DNA of 64,000 nucleotides. Origin: Dehalococcoidia bacterium. Its GTDB lineage: Bacteria; Chloroflexota; Dehalococcoidia; Bin125. The notes below the pieces were generated by a model. It saw only the letters and a list, made by a program, of their open reading frames with translations, made no database searches and was not told where the DNA came from. Position 1 is the first letter of the stretch. Each line of letters opens with the position of its first letter. The translations under genes and the position numbers were made by a program. The DNA is taken from the NCBI GenBank assembly GCA_022826965.1, contig JAJDTU010000013.1:310001-374000 (forward strand), written 5' to 3'. Positions 47,479-59,625 of the stretch are shown here, one piece after another.

Positions 47479-48399
47479 CTACGCGCGCTGGCGGATCCAT
47501 TCGCCGATGTGGTCGATGGCCTGCTGGCCCTCGGGGAGCATGGGAGCGAAGCCCTGCCAGACGTGGAACATGTCGTCCCAGATCTCCTCAACGACCTCGA
47601 CTCCCGCATCCCGTGCGCGTGCAGCGACTCGCTCCGTGTCGCGACAGATCATCTCGACGGATCCGGCCTGCAGGAGGAGGGGACAGATGCCGTCGTAGTC
47701 GGCGAAGACCGGGGAGAGCAACGGATCGCTGCGATCCGCGTCGGCTGCGTACATTGCGGCCCAGCCCTGCGAGGCCGTGATGGCGACGGTGTTGTCGGGA
47801 ATGGTCGGGTCTTCGAGTCCGAAGGCGGACAGCTCGTCGGGTCCGGCGGCGAGGTCGGCCCAGGCGGAGAGTCCGATGCCGCCGGTGGGCATGCGCACGC
47901 CGCGCTCGCGGGCGGCGAGCAGGGTGGCCAACATGAGGCCGCCGCCGGCCGAGTCGCCGCCGACGAACACTGCGGTGGCCTCGCCCGCCTCAACCGGTCC
48001 GTTAGCCCAGATGTATTCGAGCCCGGTGATCGCATCGTCAACGGCGGCGGGGTACGGGTGTTCCGGAGCCAGGCGGTAGCCGAGGTTGAGCGCGACGCAG
48101 CCTGCGGCGCGGCAGATGTCCGCGACGAGGCGACGGTGCGTGCCGATCGAGCCGAGGACATAGCCTCCGCCATGCACGTAGAGCAGGCGGCGATTGGGAT
48201 CGGACTCGGGCAACACCGTCCACTCACCGAGCACCCCGTTGACGTCGACCGCGGTGAGCGAGATGTCGTCCTGGAGCGGGAAGCTGAAGCCCTCTTCCAT
48301 CGCTGCGCGTTGCTGCTCGACGCTGAGCTCGCCTGCGATCATGCTGGCGGCCTGCGCCTGCATCGCCTCGACGACCTGCTGGTACTGCTCCGATGGCAT
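47479..48399 (-). CDS. HSL-type alpha/beta hydrolase (esterase), copy 1
   Basis: 306 residues of the hormone-sensitive-lipase (family IV) esterases. The oxyanion loop is LLYVHGGGYVLGS, the nucleophile elbow FVGGDSAGGGLMLATLL, the acid is probably the Asp in CRDTERVA, and the His in WDDMFHVWQGFAPML. It has a 45-residue N-terminal cap. It hydrolyses acyl esters of small alcohols; the substrate is unknown. It is the third in transcription order of a tandem of three paralogues, 36 bp after the previous one, and the most divergent of them. Confidence 0.92.
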   Translation of the reverse strand: MPSEQYQQVVEAMQAQAASMIAGELSVEQQRAAMEEGFSFPLQDDISLTAVDVNGVLGEWTVLPESDPNRRLLYVHGGGYVLGSIGTHRRLVADICRAAGCVALNLGYRLAPEHPYPAAVDDAITGLEYIWANGPVEAGEATAVFVGGDSAGGGLMLATLLAARERGVRMPTGGIGLSAWADLAAGPDELSAFGLEDPTIPDNTVAITASQGWAAMYAADADRSDPLLSPVFADYDGICPLLLQAGSVEMICRDTERVAARARDAGVEVVEEIWDDMFHVWQGFAPMLPEGQQAIDHIGEWIRQRA

Positions 48400-48435
48400 G
48401 GCTTGCTCCCTTGACGGCCGGACGGGCTGATCCGG

Positions 48436-49335
48436 CTACGCGTGTTGGTTGATGAACTCGCCGATTCGCTCGACGGCCTGTTGGCCTTCAGGCAGCATCG
48501 GCGCGTATTGGTGCCACACGTGGAACATCTCGTCCCAGACTTCCTCGACCACGTCGACGCCGGCTGAGCGGGCGCGTTCTGCGGCCCTGGTCGTATCGGA
48601 GAGCAGCATCTCTGCGCCGCCGACCTGCATCAGCAGTGGGGGCAGTCCGGCGAAGTCGGCGTAGAGCGGTGAGGCGAGCGGGTTCTCGGGGTCGGCGCCG
48701 CCGAGATATTGAAGGGCGAGGTTGTCGAGCATCGGCACGCTGTTCTTCTGCGGGTCGTCATCGGGGAGGGAGGTGACCGATTCTCCCGTGTTCGCGAGAT
48801 CCGTCCAGGGGGAGATCGCGACTGCGGCCTGGGGCCGTTCGATGCCCTGGTCGCGAGCCGCCAACAATGTGGCGAGCGTCAGGCCTCCGCCGGCCGAGTC
48901 TCCGGCGACGAATGTCGACTCGGCCTCGGCTTGGCCGTCGGGCCCGTGCGCGCGGATGAACCTGAGACCCTCAATGGCGTCCTCGACGGCGGCGGGGAAG
49001 GGATGCTCGGGCGCGAGGCGGTAGTCCAGGTTGAGGACCGCGCAGCGGCCCGCGCGAGCGATGTCTTCGCAGAGTCGCCGATGGGTCAGCGCGGAGCCGA
49101 ACACATAACCGCCGCCATGGAAGTAGAGCACGCGACAGTTGGGGTCCGACTCGGCCACGACGACCCACTCGCCCGGCACGCCGTTCGCCTCAACCGGCGT
49201 CACTTTGGCCGCCTCGGTCACCGGGAAGGCATGCGCCTCCATGTTCGCGCGCATCTCATCGAGCGTGGGATTTCCCTTGAGGGCAGGCCGGGCGGCGATG
49301 AGTTCGAGGACCTGCTTCAGTTCCGCCGATGCCAT
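48436..49335 (-). CDS. HSL-type alpha/beta hydrolase, copy 2
   Basis: 299 residues, closely similar to copy 3 over its full length. The oxyanion loop is VLYFHGGGYVFGSALTHRRL, the nucleophile elbow FVAGDSAGGGLTLATLLAAR and the terminal His WDEMFHVWHQYAPMLPEG. The cap (residues 1-60) reads MASAELKQVLELIAARPALK. The catalytic triad is intact. It lies 39 bp downstream of copy 3 in the same direction. Three copies in tandem suggest specialisation on related acyl or prodrug-type substrates (inference). Confidence 0.92.
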   Translation of the reverse strand: MASAELKQVLELIAARPALKGNPTLDEMRANMEAHAFPVTEAAKVTPVEANGVPGEWVVVAESDPNCRVLYFHGGGYVFGSALTHRRLCEDIARAGRCAVLNLDYRLAPEHPFPAAVEDAIEGLRFIRAHGPDGQAEAESTFVAGDSAGGGLTLATLLAARDQGIERPQAAVAISPWTDLANTGESVTSLPDDDPQKNSVPMLDNLALQYLGGADPENPLASPLYADFAGLPPLLMQVGGAEMLLSDTTRAAERARSAGVDVVEEVWDEMFHVWHQYAPMLPEGQQAVERIGEFINQHA

Positions 49336-49374
49336 CTTCCGATTCCGTTCCGACCGAGCCTTCGGCGTGGGACG

Positions 49375-50274
49375 TCAGGCGTGCTGGTTGATGAACTCGC
49401 CGATCCGATTGACGGCTTCCTGACCCTCGGGCAGCATTGGCGCGAACTGGTGCCAGACGTGGAACATCTCGTCCCAAACTTCTTCGACCACGTCGACGCC
49501 GGCCGCGCGGGCCTTCTCGGTCACGCGGGTCGTATCGGCGAGCAGCACTTCCGCGTCGCCGACCTGGAGCAGCAACGGCGGCAGTCCGGCGTAGTCGGCA
49601 TAGAGCGGTGAGGCAAGCGGGTCTTCGGCGTCCGCACCGCCGAGATACTGGGACGCCATGCCCTCCACCATTGCCGGGTCTGTGATCAGCGGGTCGGCGT
49701 CGGCGCGGGTCTGAATCGTTTCACCGGTGATGGCCAGATCGGTCCAGGCCGAGATGCCGATCGCGGCGTTGGGCTGATCGACGCCCTGCTCGCGAGCCGT
49801 GAGCAGCGTCGCAATCGTGAGTCCGCCGCCGGCCGAGTCGCCGGCGACGAAGGTCGACTGCGCCGCGCCTTCACCGTCCGGGCCGTTGGACTGGATGAAC
49901 TTGAGCCCCTCGATCGCGTCCTCGACCGCGGCGGGGAAGGGATGCTCGGGCGCGAGGCGGTAGTCGAGGTTGAGCACTGAGCAGCCGCCGGCGCGAGCGA
50001 TGTCCTCGCAGAGGCGTCTGTGCGTGACGGCCGAGCCGATCACGTAGCCGCCGCCGTGCACGTAGAGCAGCCGCCGGTTCGGGTCCGACTCGGGGACCGT
50101 GACCCACTCGCCCGGGACGCCGTTGGCTTCGACCGGCGTCACGGTCGCGGCGTCGGTGGCAGGGAATGATCCCGCCTCCATGCCAGCGCGCATCTCCTCG
50201 AGCGTGGGATTGCCGGCGCCGAGCGGTCGCTCCGCCATCAGGGCGAGTACCTTCTGCAGTTCTTCCGATGCCAT
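49375..50274 (-). CDS. HSL-type alpha/beta hydrolase, copy 3
   Basis: 299 residues, first in transcription order. It shows LLYVHGGGYVIGSAVTHRRL, FVAGDSAGGGLTIATLLTAR and WDEMFHVWHQFAPMLPEGQE. It and copy 2 share most residues, including the YRLAPEHPFPAAVEDAIEGL stretch, so their duplication is recent relative to copy 1. Its ATG is at 50272-50274. It is divergent from the LLM gene at 50386 across 111 bp that must hold both promoters; no clear one was seen. Confidence 0.92.
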   Translation of the reverse strand: MASEELQKVLALMAERPLGAGNPTLEEMRAGMEAGSFPATDAATVTPVEANGVPGEWVTVPESDPNRRLLYVHGGGYVIGSAVTHRRLCEDIARAGGCSVLNLDYRLAPEHPFPAAVEDAIEGLKFIQSNGPDGEGAAQSTFVAGDSAGGGLTIATLLTAREQGVDQPNAAIGISAWTDLAITGETIQTRADADPLITDPAMVEGMASQYLGGADAEDPLASPLYADYAGLPPLLLQVGDAEVLLADTTRVTEKARAAGVDVVEEVWDEMFHVWHQFAPMLPEGQEAVNRIGEFINQHA

Positions 50275-52259: not shown

Positions 52260-53570
52260 CTACGTCACCATGCGGCGGACGATCTCGTAGGTGAGTTCGA
52301 CTCCCATATTGAAGTTTTCGATGGTCATGTGCTCATCGTTGCCGTGGAAGCCGGCGGCTTCTTCGGGACTGAGCAGGACGGGGATGAAGCCGTAGGCGGG
52401 GATGCCTTGCTGGCGGAGGAAGCGGTTGTCGGTGCCGCCGACGCAGGTTGAGGGCACGACGGTGGCGTCCTCGACCGCCTCGTTGACCACTGACTCGATC
52501 GTCCGGTAGAGCTCGGTGTCCCAATCGACCTCGACCGGCTGTTCCTGATCCCAGCCCGAGAACTCGACCTCGATCCGGTCGTCGTCAATCACGCCGATGA
52601 CCTGCTGGCGCCAGTCCTCGCGGTCCTGGCCCGGAAGCAGTCGGCAGTCGATCACGGCCTCGGATTTGGCCGGAATGACGTTGGCTTTGATCCCGCTGTT
52701 GATCATCGTGACGTTGAGCGTGTTGATGAACATGGCGTGGGTGCCCGGGTGATCGATGACGTGTGCGGCCAACTCTTCCGCGTTCTTGACCGGCGGGATG
52801 TGGCCTTCCTCAATCAGACGGTCGAGCCAGACCTGGGTGGAGGGCGTGATCGTGACGGGACGCTCCCAGGCGGCGAGCTTCTGCAGCGCGTTGACGAGGT
52901 GCACGGCGGAGTTGTCGTAGTGCGGCCGCGAGCCGTGTCCCGGCGTGCCGATTGAGGTCAGCTTGAGCCAGCAGATGTCCTTCTCGTTGGTGGCGACGGA
53001 GAAGATGTTGGCTTCCTGCCCCATCAGTTGGGTCGAGCCTGAGCCGCCTTCGGAGAGCTCGAACTCGACGTCGACCAGGTCAGGGCGGTTCTTGCAGAGC
53101 CACTCCATTCCCCAGACCGAACCGGCTTCCTCGTCCGGCACGCCGCAGAAGACGAGGTCACGGGTTAAGGGGGCTTCGGTGCGCTGGAGCAGCAGCATCG
53201 TCATCAGGTGCATGATCCCGCAGCCCTTCATGTCGACTGCGCCACGGCCATAGACCTTGCCGTCCTCGATGTAGCCCTCGAAGGCGGGCTTGGTCCAGTA
53301 CTCCTCCTCGACCGGGACCACGTCGAGGTGGTTGCAGAGCATCATCGGCTTCTTGGAGCCGTCGCCGCGCAGCCAGGCGAAGATCGCCTCGCGCTCGGGC
53401 TGGATCTCGACGTATTCGACCTCCATGCCGGCCTCGGAGAGGATTTTGCCGATCCAGCGGGCGGCCGGCTTCTCGTTGCCGGGAGGATTGGTGGTGTTGA
53501 TTTGCAGGTAGTTGACGAAGTAGTCGAGGGCTTCGTCGAATGCGGGCTGCCAGTTGATCTGGTTGGTCAC
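52260..53570 (-). CDS. M20-family metallopeptidase
   Basis: 436 residues from GTG 53570 (VTNQINWQPAFDEALDYFVN); the longer frame (to 53657) is Ser/Gln-rich and unsupported. Zinc ligands and catalytic residues are the His-x-Asp in LCNHLDVVPVEEEYW, Asp in VYGRGAVDMKGCG, Glu-Glu in GVPDEEAGSVWGM, the dimerisation-domain block VIDCRLLPGQ, and the last His in FHGNDEHMTIENFNM. It cleaves or deacylates a small peptide or acyl-amino acid; acetylornithine deacetylase, succinyl-DAP desuccinylase and carboxypeptidase are alternatives. Divergent from the reverse transcriptase across 187 bp. Confidence 0.92.
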   Translation of the reverse strand: MTNQINWQPAFDEALDYFVNYLQINTTNPPGNEKPAARWIGKILSEAGMEVEYVEIQPEREAIFAWLRGDGSKKPMMLCNHLDVVPVEEEYWTKPAFEGYIEDGKVYGRGAVDMKGCGIMHLMTMLLLQRTEAPLTRDLVFCGVPDEEAGSVWGMEWLCKNRPDLVDVEFELSEGGSGSTQLMGQEANIFSVATNEKDICWLKLTSIGTPGHGSRPHYDNSAVHLVNALQKLAAWERPVTITPSTQVWLDRLIEEGHIPPVKNAEELAAHVIDHPGTHAMFINTLNVTMINSGIKANVIPAKSEAVIDCRLLPGQDREDWRQQVIGVIDDDRIEVEFSGWDQEQPVEVDWDTELYRTIESVVNEAVEDATVVPSTCVGGTDNRFLRQQGIPAYGFIPVLLSPEEAAGFHGNDEHMTIENFNMGVELTYEIVRRMVT

Positions 53571-53605
53571 ATCTGCCTCTGATTCGCTCGAAGATTGAGG
53601 TCCAG

Positions 53606-53635
53606 TTGACAGTTTATGCGCTCCCTGCGAACGAT
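53606..53635 (+). promoter_or_regulatory. Candidate promoter upstream of the reverse transcriptase
   Basis: A perfect -35 TTGACA (53606-53611) is followed after 18 bp by a weak -10, AACGAT (53630-53635). Transcription would start near 53642, leaving a leader of about 115 nt before the reverse transcriptase ATG. The -10 match is poor. Confidence 0.35.
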
Positions 53636-53666
53636 CTGCCAACGCAGGCTTCACCAAATCGCGAAA

Positions 53667-53747
53667 ATGGTGGAACGAGTAGGCAGTGTTTCAGTAACGC
53701 CATCAGGAGAAGTGATCGAGCTGCCCGTCAAAGTCATCTTGCTATAA
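53667..53747 (+). CDS. Possible tiny ORF just before the reverse transcriptase
   Basis: 26 codons (MVERVGSVSVTPSGEVIELP, then VKVILL), ending 10 bp before the reverse transcriptase ATG. The frame extends in-frame to ATG 53616, giving 43 codons in all. The C-terminal stretch PSGEVIELPVKVILL looks like a protein strand. It may be a leader peptide or remnant, or coincidental. No family is recognised. If the promoter above is right, only the shorter version is transcribed. Confidence 0.3.
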   Translation: MVERVGSVSVTPSGEVIELPVKVILL

Positions 53748-53757
53748 GGATTGAGAC

Positions 53758-55281
53758 ATGACCCTAGAGGAGTTTCTGCAGAACGTCCGAGCATTCCTAA
53801 GTGTCGCGAATTTCCGAGATCAGCAGATGCCGGATCCAGGTGAGTACGCGGACCTCCGCTGGCTACTCAAACGCCCACCTGACCTACATCGGCTTCTCGC
53901 CCTATCCGAGGAGCAATACTTTCAGAATCCGTACGGGGTAGTGTGGGGAACCCGCAAGCACGACCGCAGCCTGCGGCACATGGTGCTAGCCAATCCATTC
54001 GCGGAACTCCACTTGCGAACACTGCTGCACCCGGCGGCCGACCTGCTGATCGAGGCGCAATCTGATCACGCACTCGCAGGTCGGCTTGACTTGCTTCCCG
54101 AATCCACAAATGGCGCTAGAGCGTTATCGACCGCAAATCCCGGTTCCATGCACGGGCGTTACCGCAAGCGGCTCGGCAAAATGAAGCGAAGAACATACAC
54201 TGCAGGAGTTCGTACTGATGTACGAAAATGCTATCACGAAATCACGCCCGAAGCAGTAGTCCGAGCGTTTGCCCTGATGGGGTTGAGGGACATCGGAATG
54301 CACGTTGGCCTCGCCCTAAGAAAGTGCGCTGGCGATACTGGGCTCGATGGCTTGCCGATCAACCCAGAGACCTCTGGGTGGATTGCGAACATCGTTCTCA
54401 GAGACTCAGACTTGAGCTTCGCTCGCTTTCCACAGGTTGACGTCGCTCGATGGAGTGACGACTATGTCTTGGCCGCAGGCACTCCGCGACTAGTTTTCGA
54501 ATGCTTCGCTGAACTGCGGACCAATCTAGGGGCTGTGGGGCTAAAACTTGCGGAAGACAAAACGCATCGGGCTCCCAATGATGGGCTGACAGTCCCAGAT
54601 CTCATCGACATGCGATCAGAGTCGCAGGCGGACATTTGGGCAAGCGTTGACGCCAAGGATCCAGACCGACTCGGAGAGTTGCTCTTGGAAGAGCTGAACA
54701 AACTCACGCCAAGTCCGGCGCGGCTTCGAGCCCTGTTTGGGCAGAGTGTCAAAGAGTCTCTGGGAACTCCTGAGAATTCCACTGCAATCCTGAGCTACAT
54801 GCTGGAGTATCCAAGCTCCTGGGAACAAAGCTGTCCTCGAGCTGCTTCTTTCCTAGGTCTTCTAGCAAATCCAGAGCAACGGCTCAAAATGATTCACACG
54901 GCTATCGATTTGGCATCGGAGGGGCTGGTAGCTAGTGAGCAGGTGGTCCATCTGCTGCGAGCGTCGATCGCAGGACCAGAGCCGTTTGCTCCAGAATCGC
55001 CACGCGAAGTCGCGCGGCTGCTGTGGAGGTTGGCCAACACACGCGACTGCGTGCCTGTCAGAGGCTGGGCTCGCAGAGTCGCCTTTGAATTCGACCCTGA
55101 GTGGGTGAATGAACGGGTCATATACGCGGGCCAATATGAAGACTTCCATCCCTTCGAGCAACGCTGGGCAATTTCCTTCGCGAACCACAATCGCGATCGT
55201 TGGTGGCTCGAGTGTCGAGCCGACTATGGACGGTGGCCATCGATGGCTGATGCTCGATTGTCCTCCGGCTTACTCCGTTAG
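53758..55281 (+). CDS. Reverse transcriptase, defence-type (UG/Abi-like), orphan
   Basis: 507 residues. RT motifs in order: SLRHMVLANPFAELHLRTLL (motif 1/2, residues 71-90); RTDVRKCYHEI with catalytic D154 (motif A); GLPINPETSGWIANIVLRDSD (motif B, 198-218), the GLP-x5-S-G form typical of unknown-group (UG) and Abi RTs rather than the QG-x3-SP of group II introns; VARWSDDYVLAAG with D234/D235 (motif C); LKLAEDKTH (motif D). The catalytic triad is intact. No maturase, HNH or integrase domain follows; residues 271-507 are helical and unassigned. AAGGA lies upstream of the ATG. Codon usage is visibly more A/T-rich than neighbours, suggesting transfer. A defence role is inferred from the motif type. 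Confidence 0.85.
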   Translation: MTLEEFLQNVRAFLSVANFRDQQMPDPGEYADLRWLLKRPPDLHRLLALSEEQYFQNPYGVVWGTRKHDRSLRHMVLANPFAELHLRTLLHPAADLLIEAQSDHALAGRLDLLPESTNGARALSTANPGSMHGRYRKRLGKMKRRTYTAGVRTDVRKCYHEITPEAVVRAFALMGLRDIGMHVGLALRKCAGDTGLDGLPINPETSGWIANIVLRDSDLSFARFPQVDVARWSDDYVLAAGTPRLVFECFAELRTNLGAVGLKLAEDKTHRAPNDGLTVPDLIDMRSESQADIWASVDAKDPDRLGELLLEELNKLTPSPARLRALFGQSVKESLGTPENSTAILSYMLEYPSSWEQSCPRAASFLGLLANPEQRLKMIHTAIDLASEGLVASEQVVHLLRASIAGPEPFAPESPREVARLLWRLANTRDCVPVRGWARRVAFEFDPEWVNERVIYAGQYEDFHPFEQRWAISFANHNRDRWWLECRADYGRWPSMADARLSSGLLR

Positions 55282-55293
55282 CCTGCGGAACAT

Positions 55294-58200
55294 ATGAGCC
55301 AGACTAACGCGACAGCTTCGGTCCTCGATGACTTCCATCCGATGGTTCGGGAGTGGTTTTCGGGGCGGTTTGGCGCGCCGACGTTTGCTCAGGAGGATGG
55401 CTGGCCTGCGATTCGGAGCGGGGAGGACTGCCTGATTGCGGCTCCGACGGGGTCGGGCAAGACGTTGACGGCGTTCCTGGCCGGGATCGATGAGTTGATC
55501 CGGGAGGGTGAGGGCATTGAAGCACGTGGGAACCTGCCCGACGAGGTGCGGATCCTCTATATCTCGCCGCTCAAGGCGCTGTCGAACGACATCCGCCGCA
55601 ACCTCGAGGAGCCGCTGGCCGAGATCCGGCAACTGGCGGACGAGCGCGGCGTCGAGCTGCCGCGGATCCGGATGGGGCTTCGGACGGGCGATACGACGCA
55701 GGCCGAGCGGCAGGCGATCGTCAAGCGGCCGCCTCAGATTTTGATTACGACGCCCGAGTCGCTGTACCTGATGCTGACGGCGAAGCGGTCGCGGGAAATC
55801 CTGCGCACGGTGCGGACCGTCATCGTGGACGAGATTCACGCCGTGGTGCGCGACAAGCGGGGCTCGCACCTGTCGCTGACGCTGGCACGGCTGGATCATG
55901 TGGCCGAGCAGCGACCGACCCGGATCGGGCTGTCGGCGACGCAGAAGCCGATGACCGAGATCGCCTCCTTCCTGACCGGGCTGGACGAGTCGGCGCGGCC
56001 ATTGCCCTGCCGGATTCTCGACCTGGGCCATCGGCGCGAACTGAAGCTCTGGATCGAGACGACCGACGCTCCATTGCAGGCGCTGGCGACGCATGAGCAC
56101 TGGGGCGCGGTGTACGACCGGCTGGCGGAGCTGATCCTGCAGCACCGGACGACGCTGATCTTCGTCAACCGGCGGTCGCTGGCCGAGCGGGTGGCGCACG
56201 AGCTAGGCATCCGCGTGGGCAAGGAGCACGTCTCGGGGCACCACGGGTCGCTGTCCAAGGAGCGGCGGCACGTGATGGAGCAGCGGCTCAAGTCGGGCGA
56301 CCTGAAGGCGGTGGTGGCGACGGCGTCGCTGGAGTTGGGGATTGATATCGGTTCGGTCGACCTGGTCTGCCAGATTGGCTCGCCGCGGCGGATTGCAACG
56401 TTCCTGCAGCGGGTCGGGCGCTCGGGCCACGCGCTGGGACTGATTCCGCATGGGGCGCTGTTCCCGACGGCGCTGGATGAGTTGATCGAATGCGCCGCGA
56501 TGGTGCGGGCGGTGGAGCGCGGCGATCTCGACCGCATCTGTCAACCGAATGCGCCGATCGAGGTGCTGGCCCAGCAGATCGTCGCCGAGACGGCGTCGGA
56601 GGAGGAGTGGGAAGAAGACGATCTATTCGGGCTGATGCGCCGGGCGGCTCCGTATGCCGAGTTGGAGCGGTCGGCGTTCGACGAGACGATCGACATGCTC
56701 GCCACCGGCATCGGAGAGGGGGGCGGGCGCTCCAATCCGCTGCTGCATCGCGACCGGATCAACGGCGTCGTCAAACCTCGGCGAGCGGCTCGGATGACGG
56801 CGATTCTCAACGGTGGGACGATCCCGGAGACCGGCGACTACCGCGTGATCAAGGAGCCTGAAGGGGCGTTCATCGGCACGGTCAACGAGGACTTTGCGAT
56901 CGAAACGGCGGCCGGCGACATTTTTCTGTTGGGCAGCACGTCGTGGAGGATTCGACGGGTCGAGAACAAGGGCATTGTGCGGGTCGAGGATGCGCACGGC
57001 GCTCCACCGACGATCCCGTTCTGGTTGGGCGAGGCGCCGGGACGCAGTATCGAGCTGTCTGCTGCGGTCGGGGAGCTGCGGCGCGAGATCGGCGGCATGG
57101 CAGACGATCCGGAGTCGGCATCGCGCTACCTGCAGCGCGAATGTCACATGCAGGCGATCGCCGCCGAGCAGATGGTCGAGTACCTGGCCGAGACACAGGA
57201 GTCGCTGCAGGTGATGCCGTCGGACACCGACGTCGTCTTCGAGCGCTTCTTTGACGAATCCGGTGGACAGCAGTTGATCGTGCACGCGCCGTTCGGCTCG
57301 GGCGTCAACCGAGCCTGGGGCCTGGCCCTACGCAAGCGCTTCTGCGTGCGCTTCGATTTCGAGCTGCAGGCGGCGGCGAACGAGGAGGGCATTTTGCTTT
57401 CGCTCGGGCCGACGCAGTCATTCCCGCTCGAGGAGGCGTTCGAGTATCTGAAGTCGGACAACGCCGAGCAGTCGCTGCGCCAGGCCGTGCTCTACGCGCC
57501 GTTCTGGAACACGCGCTGGCGCTGGGCGGCGACTCGCGCGCTGGCCGTGCCCCGACGCCGCGGCGCCAAAGAAGTGCCGCCGTACCTGCAGCGGATGATC
57601 GCCGACGACCTGCTCGCGGCCGTGTTCCCGGCGCAGGTCGGCTGCCAGGAGAACCTGGCCGGACCGCTTGAGGTGCCCAACCACCCGCTGATCGCCCAGA
57701 CGATGGACGACTGCCTGCACGAAGCGGTCGACACCGACGGGCTGATTGGCGTGCTGGAGCGAATCGAGCGCGGAGAGATCCGCCTGCATGCCCGCGACAC
57801 GGTCACGCCGTCGGGCATGGCGCAGAGCATCATCAACATCAATCCGTTCGGATTCCTCGACGACGCGCCGCTGGAGGAACGCCGGGCGCGCGCCGTGATG
57901 ACCCGCCGAACGCTGCCGAACGAACAGCGGGATCTTGGCAAGCTCGACATTGACGCGATCGAGCGGGTCCAGGACGAAGCCTTCCCGCCGATCCGCGATG
58001 CGGACGAACTGCATGAGTTGTTGCTCTCGGTGGTCGCGCTGCGCGAGAGCGAGTTGTCGACGGTCTCGCCCGTGCTGGCCGACGCCGGCACGCCGCTGAT
58101 GTTCGCCGAGTTGCGGGCGGACGGCCGCGCGGCTCGCGCTGAGGGACCGGACGGCACGGTGTGGTTTGCGGCCGAGCACCTGGAATCGATCCGGCAACTC

Positions 58201-59625
58201 TTTGCAGACCACGCGGTTGAACCGGGTTTTACCGTGCCGGAGTCGGCGCTGATCCTGCCGACCGACCGCGAGGATGCGCGGCTCAAACTGGTCCGGGGAC
58301 ACCTCGAGATCTCCGGCCCCATCAGCGCGGCGGATCTGTCGCGGCGCTGCGGACTTGCGGAGCAGGACTGCGGATTCGGACTCGCCCAACTTGAGGCCTA
58401 CGGCGAGATCATGCGCGGCCACTTCACGCCGACGCTCGGCTCGGAAGACGCTGAGGAGTATTGCGACCGTCGCCTGCTGGCCCGGATCCACCGCTACACG
58501 ATCGCCCGCCTACGCGCCGAGATCGAACCAGTAACTGTCCAGCACTATCTGCGCTTCCTCCTGCGCTGGCAGCACCTGACTCCGGACACGCGGCTGTCGG
58601 GCAAAGCGGGCGTGCGTGCGGTGATCGAACAGTTGCAGGGATTTGAGGCCCCGGCTGCGGCCTGGGAGCGGGAGTTGATCGCGCCCCGGGTCGGCGATTA
58701 CCGAGAGGCCTGGTTGGACGAACTCTGTCTCGCCGGTGATGTCGCCTGGGCGCGTCTGACCGCGCGTTCGGCGCGTCGGGCTCCGACCAAGACGACGCCG
58801 ATCGCGCTCGCGCTTCGGCGGGACTTCCGCTCGTTGCTCATGGCGGTTCGTCGCCCGGCGCCGCTGCCGGCTGCTCGCGGACGCTACGCGCCCGAGCCAC
58901 AGCCCGATGTCGCCGAGCAACTGCACGCCGAGGGCGGAGCGGCCAGCCAGATTCTGCGCTTGCTGGAGGAGCGTGGCGCGCTGTTCTTCGACGAGCTGGT
59001 CGACGGGACGCGGCGGCTCGCCACCGACGTCGAGGGCGGGCTGCGGGAGCTGGTCGCCACGGGACTCGCGCATGCGGACGGTTTCCAGGGACTACGCCAA
59101 CTGATTCGGCCCAACCGTCCGTCGCGGCGTCCGCGCTACGGCGGCGGCGGGGTGTTCATCGGCGAGGGTCCGGCCGGCCGTTGGGCGGCGCTGCCGCCGA
59201 CCATGGATGGGCCAACCGATCCGATCGAGGCCGACGACCTGGCCGAGCGTGTCGCGACGATCCTGCTCCAGCGCTACGGCGTCGTGTCGCGCGAACTGGC
59301 GACCCGCGAGAGCCTGACGATCCAGTGGCGTGACGTGTTACGAGCGCTGCGCCGGCTCGAGGCGCGCGGGGAGATACGTGGTGGCCGGTTCATTCAGGGT
59401 CTGCTGGGCGAACAGTTCGCGCTGCCGGCTGCGCTCGACCAGCTCAGGGCCGTCCGCCGCGCTGCGACCACCGACGAGAATATCTCGGTCGCTGCCAGCG
59501 ACCCTTGCAATCTGGTCGGCATCCTGATGCCGGGTCAGAAAGTGCCAGCCAGGCTCGGCTCCAAGCTCACCCTGGTTGATGGCGTGCCGCTGGAATCGGG
59601 CACCGCCCCAGTGACCGCCGACTAA
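55294..59625 (+). CDS. lhr: Lhr-family ATP-dependent helicase
   Basis: 1443 residues, close to the length of Lhr proteins. RecA-like domain 1 has Walker A IAAPTGSGKTLTAFL (49-57), ISPLKALSNDIRRNL, ITTPESLYLML and DEIH (179-182) in VIVDEIHAVV. Domain 2 has LELGIDIGSVDLVCQIGSPR and RRIATFLQRVGRSGHALG. A winged-helix/Lhr-core segment and a long C-terminal extension with repeated winged-helix-like units follow. It unwinds DNA or RNA-DNA hybrids in repair. It starts 12 bp after the reverse transcriptase with no obvious ribosome site, so the two may be cotranscribed. Confidence 0.95.
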   Translation: MSQTNATASVLDDFHPMVREWFSGRFGAPTFAQEDGWPAIRSGEDCLIAAPTGSGKTLTAFLAGIDELIREGEGIEARGNLPDEVRILYISPLKALSNDIRRNLEEPLAEIRQLADERGVELPRIRMGLRTGDTTQAERQAIVKRPPQILITTPESLYLMLTAKRSREILRTVRTVIVDEIHAVVRDKRGSHLSLTLARLDHVAEQRPTRIGLSATQKPMTEIASFLTGLDESARPLPCRILDLGHRRELKLWIETTDAPLQALATHEHWGAVYDRLAELILQHRTTLIFVNRRSLAERVAHELGIRVGKEHVSGHHGSLSKERRHVMEQRLKSGDLKAVVATASLELGIDIGSVDLVCQIGSPRRIATFLQRVGRSGHALGLIPHGALFPTALDELIECAAMVRAVERGDLDRICQPNAPIEVLAQQIVAETASEEEWEEDDLFGLMRRAAPYAELERSAFDETIDMLATGIGEGGGRSNPLLHRDRINGVVKPRRAARMTAILNGGTIPETGDYRVIKEPEGAFIGTVNEDFAIETAAGDIFLLGSTSWRIRRVENKGIVRVEDAHGAPPTIPFWLGEAPGRSIELSAAVGELRREIGGMADDPESASRYLQRECHMQAIAAEQMVEYLAETQESLQVMPSDTDVVFERFFDESGGQQLIVHAPFGSGVNRAWGLALRKRFCVRFDFELQAAANEEGILLSLGPTQSFPLEEAFEYLKSDNAEQSLRQAVLYAPFWNTRWRWAATRALAVPRRRGAKEVPPYLQRMIADDLLAAVFPAQVGCQENLAGPLEVPNHPLIAQTMDDCLHEAVDTDGLIGVLERIERGEIRLHARDTVTPSGMAQSIININPFGFLDDAPLEERRARAVMTRRTLPNEQRDLGKLDIDAIERVQDEAFPPIRDADELHELLLSVVALRESELSTVSPVLADAGTPLMFAELRADGRAARAEGPDGTVWFAAEHLESIRQLFADHAVEPGFTVPESALILPTDREDARLKLVRGHLEISGPISAADLSRRCGLAEQDCGFGLAQLEAYGEIMRGHFTPTLGSEDAEEYCDRRLLARIHRYTIARLRAEIEPVTVQHYLRFLLRWQHLTPDTRLSGKAGVRAVIEQLQGFEAPAAAWERELIAPRVGDYREAWLDELCLAGDVAWARLTARSARRAPTKTTPIALALRRDFRSLLMAVRRPAPLPAARGRYAPEPQPDVAEQLHAEGGAASQILRLLEERGALFFDELVDGTRRLATDVEGGLRELVATGLAHADGFQGLRQLIRPNRPSRRPRYGGGGVFIGEGPAGRWAALPPTMDGPTDPIEADDLAERVATILLQRYGVVSRELATRESLTIQWRDVLRALRRLEARGEIRGGRFIQGLLGEQFALPAALDQLRAVRRAATTDENISVAASDPCNLVGILMPGQKVPARLGSKLTLVDGVPLESGTAPVTAD

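Follow-up and report, generated by a model that had tools for sequence, protein, structure and literature searches.

The window analysed here, a 64,000-nucleotide stretch of DNA, carries a reverse transcriptase (RT) gene between an M20 peptidase and an Lhr-type helicase. The features of this locus, in window coordinates, are as follows.

52260..53573, minus strand: left border gene, M20 peptidase (Pfam PF01546, 6.7e-32; adjoins Lhr in 18 of 20 family genomes by tblastn)
53559..55285, no strand: variable slot, in which the nucleotide sequence is not homologous to relatives (by blastn, homology with G305, G301 and G309 ends at ~53558 and restarts at ~55286)
53572..53757, plus strand: 5' leader from the divergent M20 peptidase to the RT, 186 nt (no sign of structured ncRNA; no Rfam match)
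53758..55281, plus strand: UG/Abi-type RT, single gene (507-aa ORF; two full-length relatives; PADLOC Drt6, UG34 and Drt8 matches)
54160..54573, plus strand: RT palm/fingers core, residues 135-272 (RVT_1 match at residues 137-272; motif alignment with 38 other RTs)
54217..54219, plus strand: motif A catalytic Asp154 (invariant in the trio of RTs described below; aligns with motif A of all reference RTs)
54349..54402, plus strand: motif B GLPINPETSGWIANIVLR, starting at residue 198 (lines up with Drt6 GIPIGPDTS...AE; terminates in AN, not AE)
54448..54462, plus strand: motif C RWSDD, catalytic Asp234 and Asp235 (invariant in the trio)
54658..55263, plus strand: predicted C-terminal alpha-solenoid (alphaRep/HEAT-like), residues 301-502 (AF2 model; VIA-align to HEAT/ARM solenoids; G316 domain matches alphaRep)
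55258..55293, plus strand: end of the RT gene (TAG 55279-55281) inside the conserved Lhr start element CTCCGCTAAGATACGGAACATATG (which also occurs at empty sites)
55294..59625, plus strand: right border gene, Lhr-type helicase (Pfam DEAD_assoc, WH_Lhr and WH4_Lhr; N-terminal part in 20 of 20 family genomes)

The RT reading frame begins at an ATG preceded by an AAGGA-like ribosome site. Confirming an earlier note on this DNA, which had recognized RT motifs A, B and C in a frame whose coordinates proved exact, we found motif A (RTDVRKCYHEI, holding D154), motif B (GLPINPETSGWIAN) and motif C (ARWSDDYVL, with D234 and D235) all present. As judged from these residues, the catalytic core is intact. 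The protein matched Pfam RVT_1 with an E value of 2e-5 at 24.8 bits, under the cut-off of 29.6 bits, and a group II RT model with an E value of 2e-4, and it is the sole RVT_1 match in the 3.0-Mb host genome. Together with the PADLOC matches given below, these model matches are weak but agree with one another. A PHROGs search with the RT returned weak polymerase matches and nothing stronger. The same note had described an orphan RT with a composition unlike that of its neighbours. Both observations hold, with a lone gene bordered by the M20 peptidase and Lhr helicase, a GC content of 56.7% and a GC3 of 58.9%; in seven neighbouring genes used for comparison GC3 is 79-88%. Across the window, GC content over 1.5 kb is lowest in a stretch that begins at ~53500.

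Two relatives of the RT were detected among whole genomes, one in the same genus (G305, 37% identity) and one in the same Dehalococcoidia family (G316, 33% identity). A genome-contig collection contained the same two relatives and none further, and RT carriers amount to three of the 20 genomes of the family. The proteins of this trio are 507-517 aa long and share invariant residues D154, D234, D235, R231-W232 and K268-T269, the N-terminal blocks MPDP and NPxGxxxGxRKxDR, and the C-terminal blocks EQV...RA and PVRxWAR. Retention of these motifs at 37% and 33% identity indicates that the window RT frame is a real coding sequence. No relatives were found in phages, plasmids or viral contigs; the only phage match of the G316 homologue was the BPP-1 DGR RT. 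A three-sequence profile searched against 393 Dehalococcoidia genomes sampled from the class added only distant RTs (E values of 5e-12 or weaker), and these weak matches belong elsewhere. A different UG RT of 450 aa, UG32-like (2.7e-53), was observed in G318 (L012:1033-2382, contig C58), where it adjoins a gltX-looking gene at a locus other than that between the M20 and Lhr genes.

In each of the three carriers the RT has a lower GC content than its surroundings, a foreign composition. The patchy distribution, in three of 20 family genomes, would suit a non-functional passenger of horizontal transfer. We consider this explanation highly improbable, given full-length ORFs without stops and a catalytic core that is invariant at 33-37% identity, in contrast to a methyltransferase relic beside the G316 RT that has lost its middle.

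We searched around the RT for RNA elements and repeats. The RNA fold of the leader gave a z-score of 0.67, with 148 of 200 shuffles folding as well, and Rfam, tRNA and promoter scans gave no match. Around the window RT there appears to be neither space for a template ncRNA nor a sign of one. DGR template/variable repeats or A-biased repeat pairs were not found near the RT in the three genomes, and long repeats near the window RT, considered as DGR repeats, were paralogous hydrolase genes.

To place the trio, we built a tree of 41 RTs over 177 columns from our own loci and annotated records, in which DRT2, DRT9 and DRT10 sequences are absent; ~17 references were labelled by PADLOC scores and the others by family search, record annotation or motif B. 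The trio was monophyletic (100/99) and grouped with Abi-P2, Drt6 and Drt3b (100/100), and Drt3a, the lone Class 2 member, fell elsewhere on a long branch. When the trio was held with other groups in AU tests, p values were 0.049 for group II, 0.045 for DGR, 0.026 for Drt8, 0.056 for UG19-21 and 0.136 for retrons; the trio outside the Class 1 references gave a p value of 0.52 and the trio with Drt6 a p value of 0.55. On this evidence, the side of the ML tree on which the trio lies is clear and its exact place is not, with retrons not formally rejected and group II and DGR marginally rejected. The earlier note's claim that the RT lies outside the group II class therefore stands in the tree, although the AU rejection is marginal (p 0.049). 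That note had also named the retron clade as a placement at odds with its reading; the trio lies outside both clades in the tree, but the AU test does not reject the retron one.

These data also bear on the idea that the trio derives from a captured or decayed DGR or retron RT. By sequence alone, the best match of the profile among solved structures was the BPP-1 DGR RT (1.6e-10), and a clade with retrons was not rejected (p 0.136). However, the trio's motif B has SG or SS instead of the SQ of DGRs and PIN, PIT or PIG instead of the PQG of retrons and group II, there is no Rfam intron around the ORF or Rfam match to a retron, and no repeat pair lies near the RT. Furthermore, DGR and retron references fall into separate clades (100/98) that exclude the trio, whose proteins of 507-517 aa carry a predicted solenoid. 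We regard a DGR or retron origin as very unlikely.

Comparison with PADLOC models further defined the position of the trio. The best models for the window RT were Drt6 (5e-9), UG34 (1e-7), UG35 (2e-7) and Drt8 (1e-6), but the Drt6 model scored only 33.5 bits with its best stretch at residues 198-270, and a full-length match failed. The top PADLOC 2.0 UG score for the trio was 64.5 bits, from the Drt8 model over residues 136-346 of the G316 homologue, again without a full-length match. By comparison, proteins from established groups reach 320-654 bits on the model of their group, and full-length Drt6 loci in Chloroflexota score 290-574 bits on the Drt6 model. Given these differences, the trio is, by its scores, a new subfamily of UG/Abi RTs on their Class 1 side, with the qualification that PADLOC dates from 2023 and the trio could belong to a group published since. 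Chloroflexota genomes also contain full-length relatives of Abi-P2 scoring 618-654 bits, at L046, L047, L057 and L059; two of these are from Dehalococcoidia.

We also compared the trio with a Class 1 signature, YTHS/T after motif A and AE after motif B, that we read off the Abi-P2, Drt6 and Drt3b references and that is not a published criterion. Every Class 1 reference has YTH after motif A. The trio has ITPEA, VRPRI or IAPQV at this position and ends motif B with IAN, LAN or LCN, so that AN replaces AE and neither element of the signature is found. The absence of YTH lowers the claim of plain Class 1 membership and leaves the architectural match as it is. No tyrosine is invariant across the trio, the nearest being Y54, which is displaced by one residue in G316; protein priming is therefore unsupported by conservation.

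Structure prediction with AF2, run with the three-sequence alignment, gave models of moderate quality for the window protein (mean pLDDT 63, pTM 0.47, with residues 1-91 below 50 and unreliable) and the G316 homologue (mean pLDDT 53, pTM 0.45). The C-termini were all-helical in both models, with pLDDT of ~65-90. In Foldseek searches of solved structures, DRT6 (E 3.5e-6), DRT4, Abi-P2, UG15 and AbiA led for the window protein, with AbiK lower (2.3e-4), and DRT4, Abi-P2, DRT6, UG15 and AbiA led for the G316 homologue. VIA-align superposed the window protein on DRT6 with Z 13.6 over 352 residues spanning 57-491, and on AbiK with Z 11.4 and rmsd 8.7 over 373 residues. Because the models are moderate, the rmsd to DRT6 is large (8.4 A) and a good part of the match is domain-wise. 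Taken alone, the C-terminal region of the window protein matched the HEAT solenoid INTS4 (Z 11.7, rmsd 4.1, 188 residues), and that of G316 matched designed alphaRep proteins (Z 12.8, rmsd 2.6, 151 residues). Because helical repeats score high in general, with Z of 11-14 being usual for helical solenoids, the solenoid assignment draws on the order of the whole-protein matches and on the agreement of two divergent sequences. The C-terminus of the window RT is thus predicted to be an alphaRep/HEAT-like alpha-solenoid, as typical of Class 1 UG/Abi RTs. The earlier note had held that the C-terminal 240 residues resemble no known domain and had proposed predicting their fold; instead, ~200 of them match a known domain type in AF2, Foldseek and VIA-align.

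All three RTs lie between a divergent M20 peptidase and a downstream Lhr-type helicase, and we read the contents of this M20-Lhr slot in 18 of the 20 family genomes, leaving out G315 (where the stretch used shows no M20 next to Lhr) and G314 (a fragment). In eight genus members the slot is empty, with an M20-Lhr spacer of 94-109 bp, and in three genomes it is occupied by the RT. One ORF combining an N6_N4 methyltransferase with HNH fills the slot of G313 and G218 (L034:3695-5320 and L035:12603-14204, 76% identical between the two), and G306 carries a D12 (Dam-type) adenine methyltransferase followed by a SacI-type restriction endonuclease (L036:3178-5396). These restriction-modification genes are oriented opposite to the RT. 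In G317 and G318, which belong to another genus, M20 and Lhr are 209-258 bp apart. The junctions of G310 (184 bp) and G312 (395 bp) are non-coding and, read by eye, resemble the M20-side flank of the methyltransferase alleles; that of G312 (L038) is probably the scar of a lost cassette, and that of G310 (L015) has a palindromic REP-like stretch, GTCATACCCGCGCTTGTCGCGGGAATGACGG, in an otherwise empty slot.

Several further observations concern the surroundings of the slot. Beside the G316 RT lies a methyltransferase-HNH remnant (L004:1009-1425) whose ends match and from which ~370 middle residues are gone. An extra ORF between the M20 and NIPSNAP-like genes of G306 (L036:6902-7657) indicates that the other side of M20 varies too. 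Upstream of the slot, the window contains three tandem alpha/beta-hydrolase-like paralogues (47479-50274), with DNA 75-76% identical where compared.

The nucleotide flanks of the slot are 91% and 86% identical between the window and G305. Between the window genome (G000) and G305, Lhr (N-terminal 400 aa) is 96% identical and M20 95% identical, versus 37% for the RTs. In a flank tree, the RT-bearing G305 was sister to the methyltransferase-bearing G313 (100/100), with the RT-bearing G000 next. The alternation of RT, methyltransferase, restriction and empty alleles, together with this tree, indicates that slot contents change between close relatives. Given near-identical flanks, RTs at 37% identity and the order of the flank tree, the two same-genus RTs appear most simply to be separate acquisitions or a replaced allele.

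The arrangement of the slot could also suggest a domesticated housekeeping RT, for example one acting in repair with the adjacent Lhr helicase, rather than a defence gene. The RT lies directly upstream of lhr in the same orientation in all three carriers, with a gap of 12-20 bp in the two same-genus genomes (12 bp in the window), which makes co-expression plausible. Most family genomes, however, have lhr without an RT, the RT has diverged strongly beside a conserved helicase, and restriction-modification genes in the opposite orientation can take its place in the slot. We therefore find a housekeeping role quite unlikely.

The earlier note's proposal of an anti-phage candidate is backed by a slot where relatives carry restriction-modification genes, and from the fold and the slot together we infer a defence role. 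We favor, with somewhat better than even confidence, the interpretation that the window RT is a single-gene anti-phage UG/Abi RT with a predicted architecture nearest Class 1 (DRT6, DRT4, Abi-P2 and AbiK). The trio is best read as a new and divergent lineage of UG/Abi RTs, and each RT would most likely act as a one-gene anti-phage system whose DNA synthesis needs no encoded RNA as template. In Class 1 UG/Abi RTs, a helical domain replaces the thumb, and these proteins form trimers or hexamers and synthesize untemplated DNA from their own tyrosine (PMC9508834, PMC13174585). By analogy, the solenoid of the trio may replace the thumb and drive assembly of a trimer or hexamer, and the oligomer would synthesize single-stranded DNA with no encoded RNA to copy, a side chain of the protein possibly serving as primer. 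Again by analogy, infection by a phage would trigger this DNA or stabilize it, and the DNA, by being toxic or by sequestering replication proteins, would halt phage growth through abortive infection. The gene itself would be gained, lost and replaced at the M20-Lhr slot via horizontal transfer. The architecture, the lack of a companion gene and the lack of any sign of a structured leader fit this untemplated mode; the lack of YTH, AN in place of AE and the lack of an invariant tyrosine do not.

Alternatively, the RT could be an RNA-templated Class 2-type UG system that uses an adjacent ncRNA as template for repetitive or coding cDNA, as DRT2, DRT9 and DRT10 do. Consistent with this possibility, a 186-nt leader exists, a motif B ending in AN is closer to templated RTs than to the AE of the Class 1 references, and over the RT core the RT of DRT9 ranks high among the structural matches (Z 11.9, rmsd 3.3 A over 168 residues). 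However, the leader folds no better than shuffled sequences and has no Rfam match, the RT-Lhr gap is merely 12 bp, the C-terminus is a predicted solenoid, and the tree, which lacks DRT2, DRT9 and DRT10, puts the trio with Class 1. Such a templated system seems unlikely to us. Somewhat more plausible, though still doubtful, is that the trio, as alpha-solenoid RTs, stands at the base of a UG lineage whose chemistry is distinct and whose DNA product is unlike known ones; loss of the YTH element and of a fixed priming tyrosine would then mean that DNA is started from another residue or primer.

Under the favored interpretation of a single-gene anti-phage RT, the trio lineage combines a Chloroflexota host and a minimal one-gene unit with the lack of a full-length match to any PADLOC group. 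To our knowledge, each UG/Abi RT so far makes a different kind of defence DNA. In the literature searched, we found no paper joining RTs and defence in Dehalococcoidia. The slot presents natural allele swaps (RT, methyltransferase, restriction pair or empty) in near-identical backgrounds, which makes defence-gene turnover directly testable. Defence hotspots of bacterial genomes and mobile elements (for example, PMC9122126) likewise hold interchangeable defence genes at one fixed position with conserved borders. The M20-Lhr slot differs in being chromosomal with usually one cassette at a time and no integrase seen, and in being flanked by a metabolic and a helicase gene in a Dehalococcoidia family.

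UG33, UG34, UG36, UG23 and Drt8 are among the better PADLOC models for the trio, mostly over the RT core, but the trio reaches at most 65 bits where the members tested (UG20, UG21, UG19 and Drt8) score 340-490 on their own models. DRT6 (UG12) and DRT4 (UG15) are single-gene antiviral RTs. They resemble the trio in an RT core followed by an alpha-solenoid, in being the top structural matches of both predicted models and in lacking a companion gene or ncRNA, and of the PADLOC models Drt6 gives the window protein its best match. The trio differs from DRT6 in lacking YTH after motif A, in AN for AE after motif B and in RWSDD for R-YxDD, and the window RT scores only 33.5 bits on the Drt6 model versus 290-574 bits for Chloroflexota Drt6 loci. 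DRT4 makes random single-stranded DNA that is stabilized by a phage protein, the same protein activates DRT6, and the single-gene toxicity of both has been summarized (PMC13213688). AbiK, Abi-P2 and DRT3b have the Class 1 alphaRep architecture and untemplated, protein-primed synthesis (PMC9508834, PMC13174585), with Y44 of AbiK and Y61 of Abi-P2 as priming tyrosines in a fingers loop (PMC9508834). No conserved priming tyrosine was found in the trio, which reaches at most 41 bits on the AbiP2 model, whose members score 618-654 bits. Its likeness to Abi-P2, AbiK and AbiA (Foldseek E 1e-5 to 2e-4) lies instead in the palm and fingers, a predicted helical domain in place of the thumb, and protein size.
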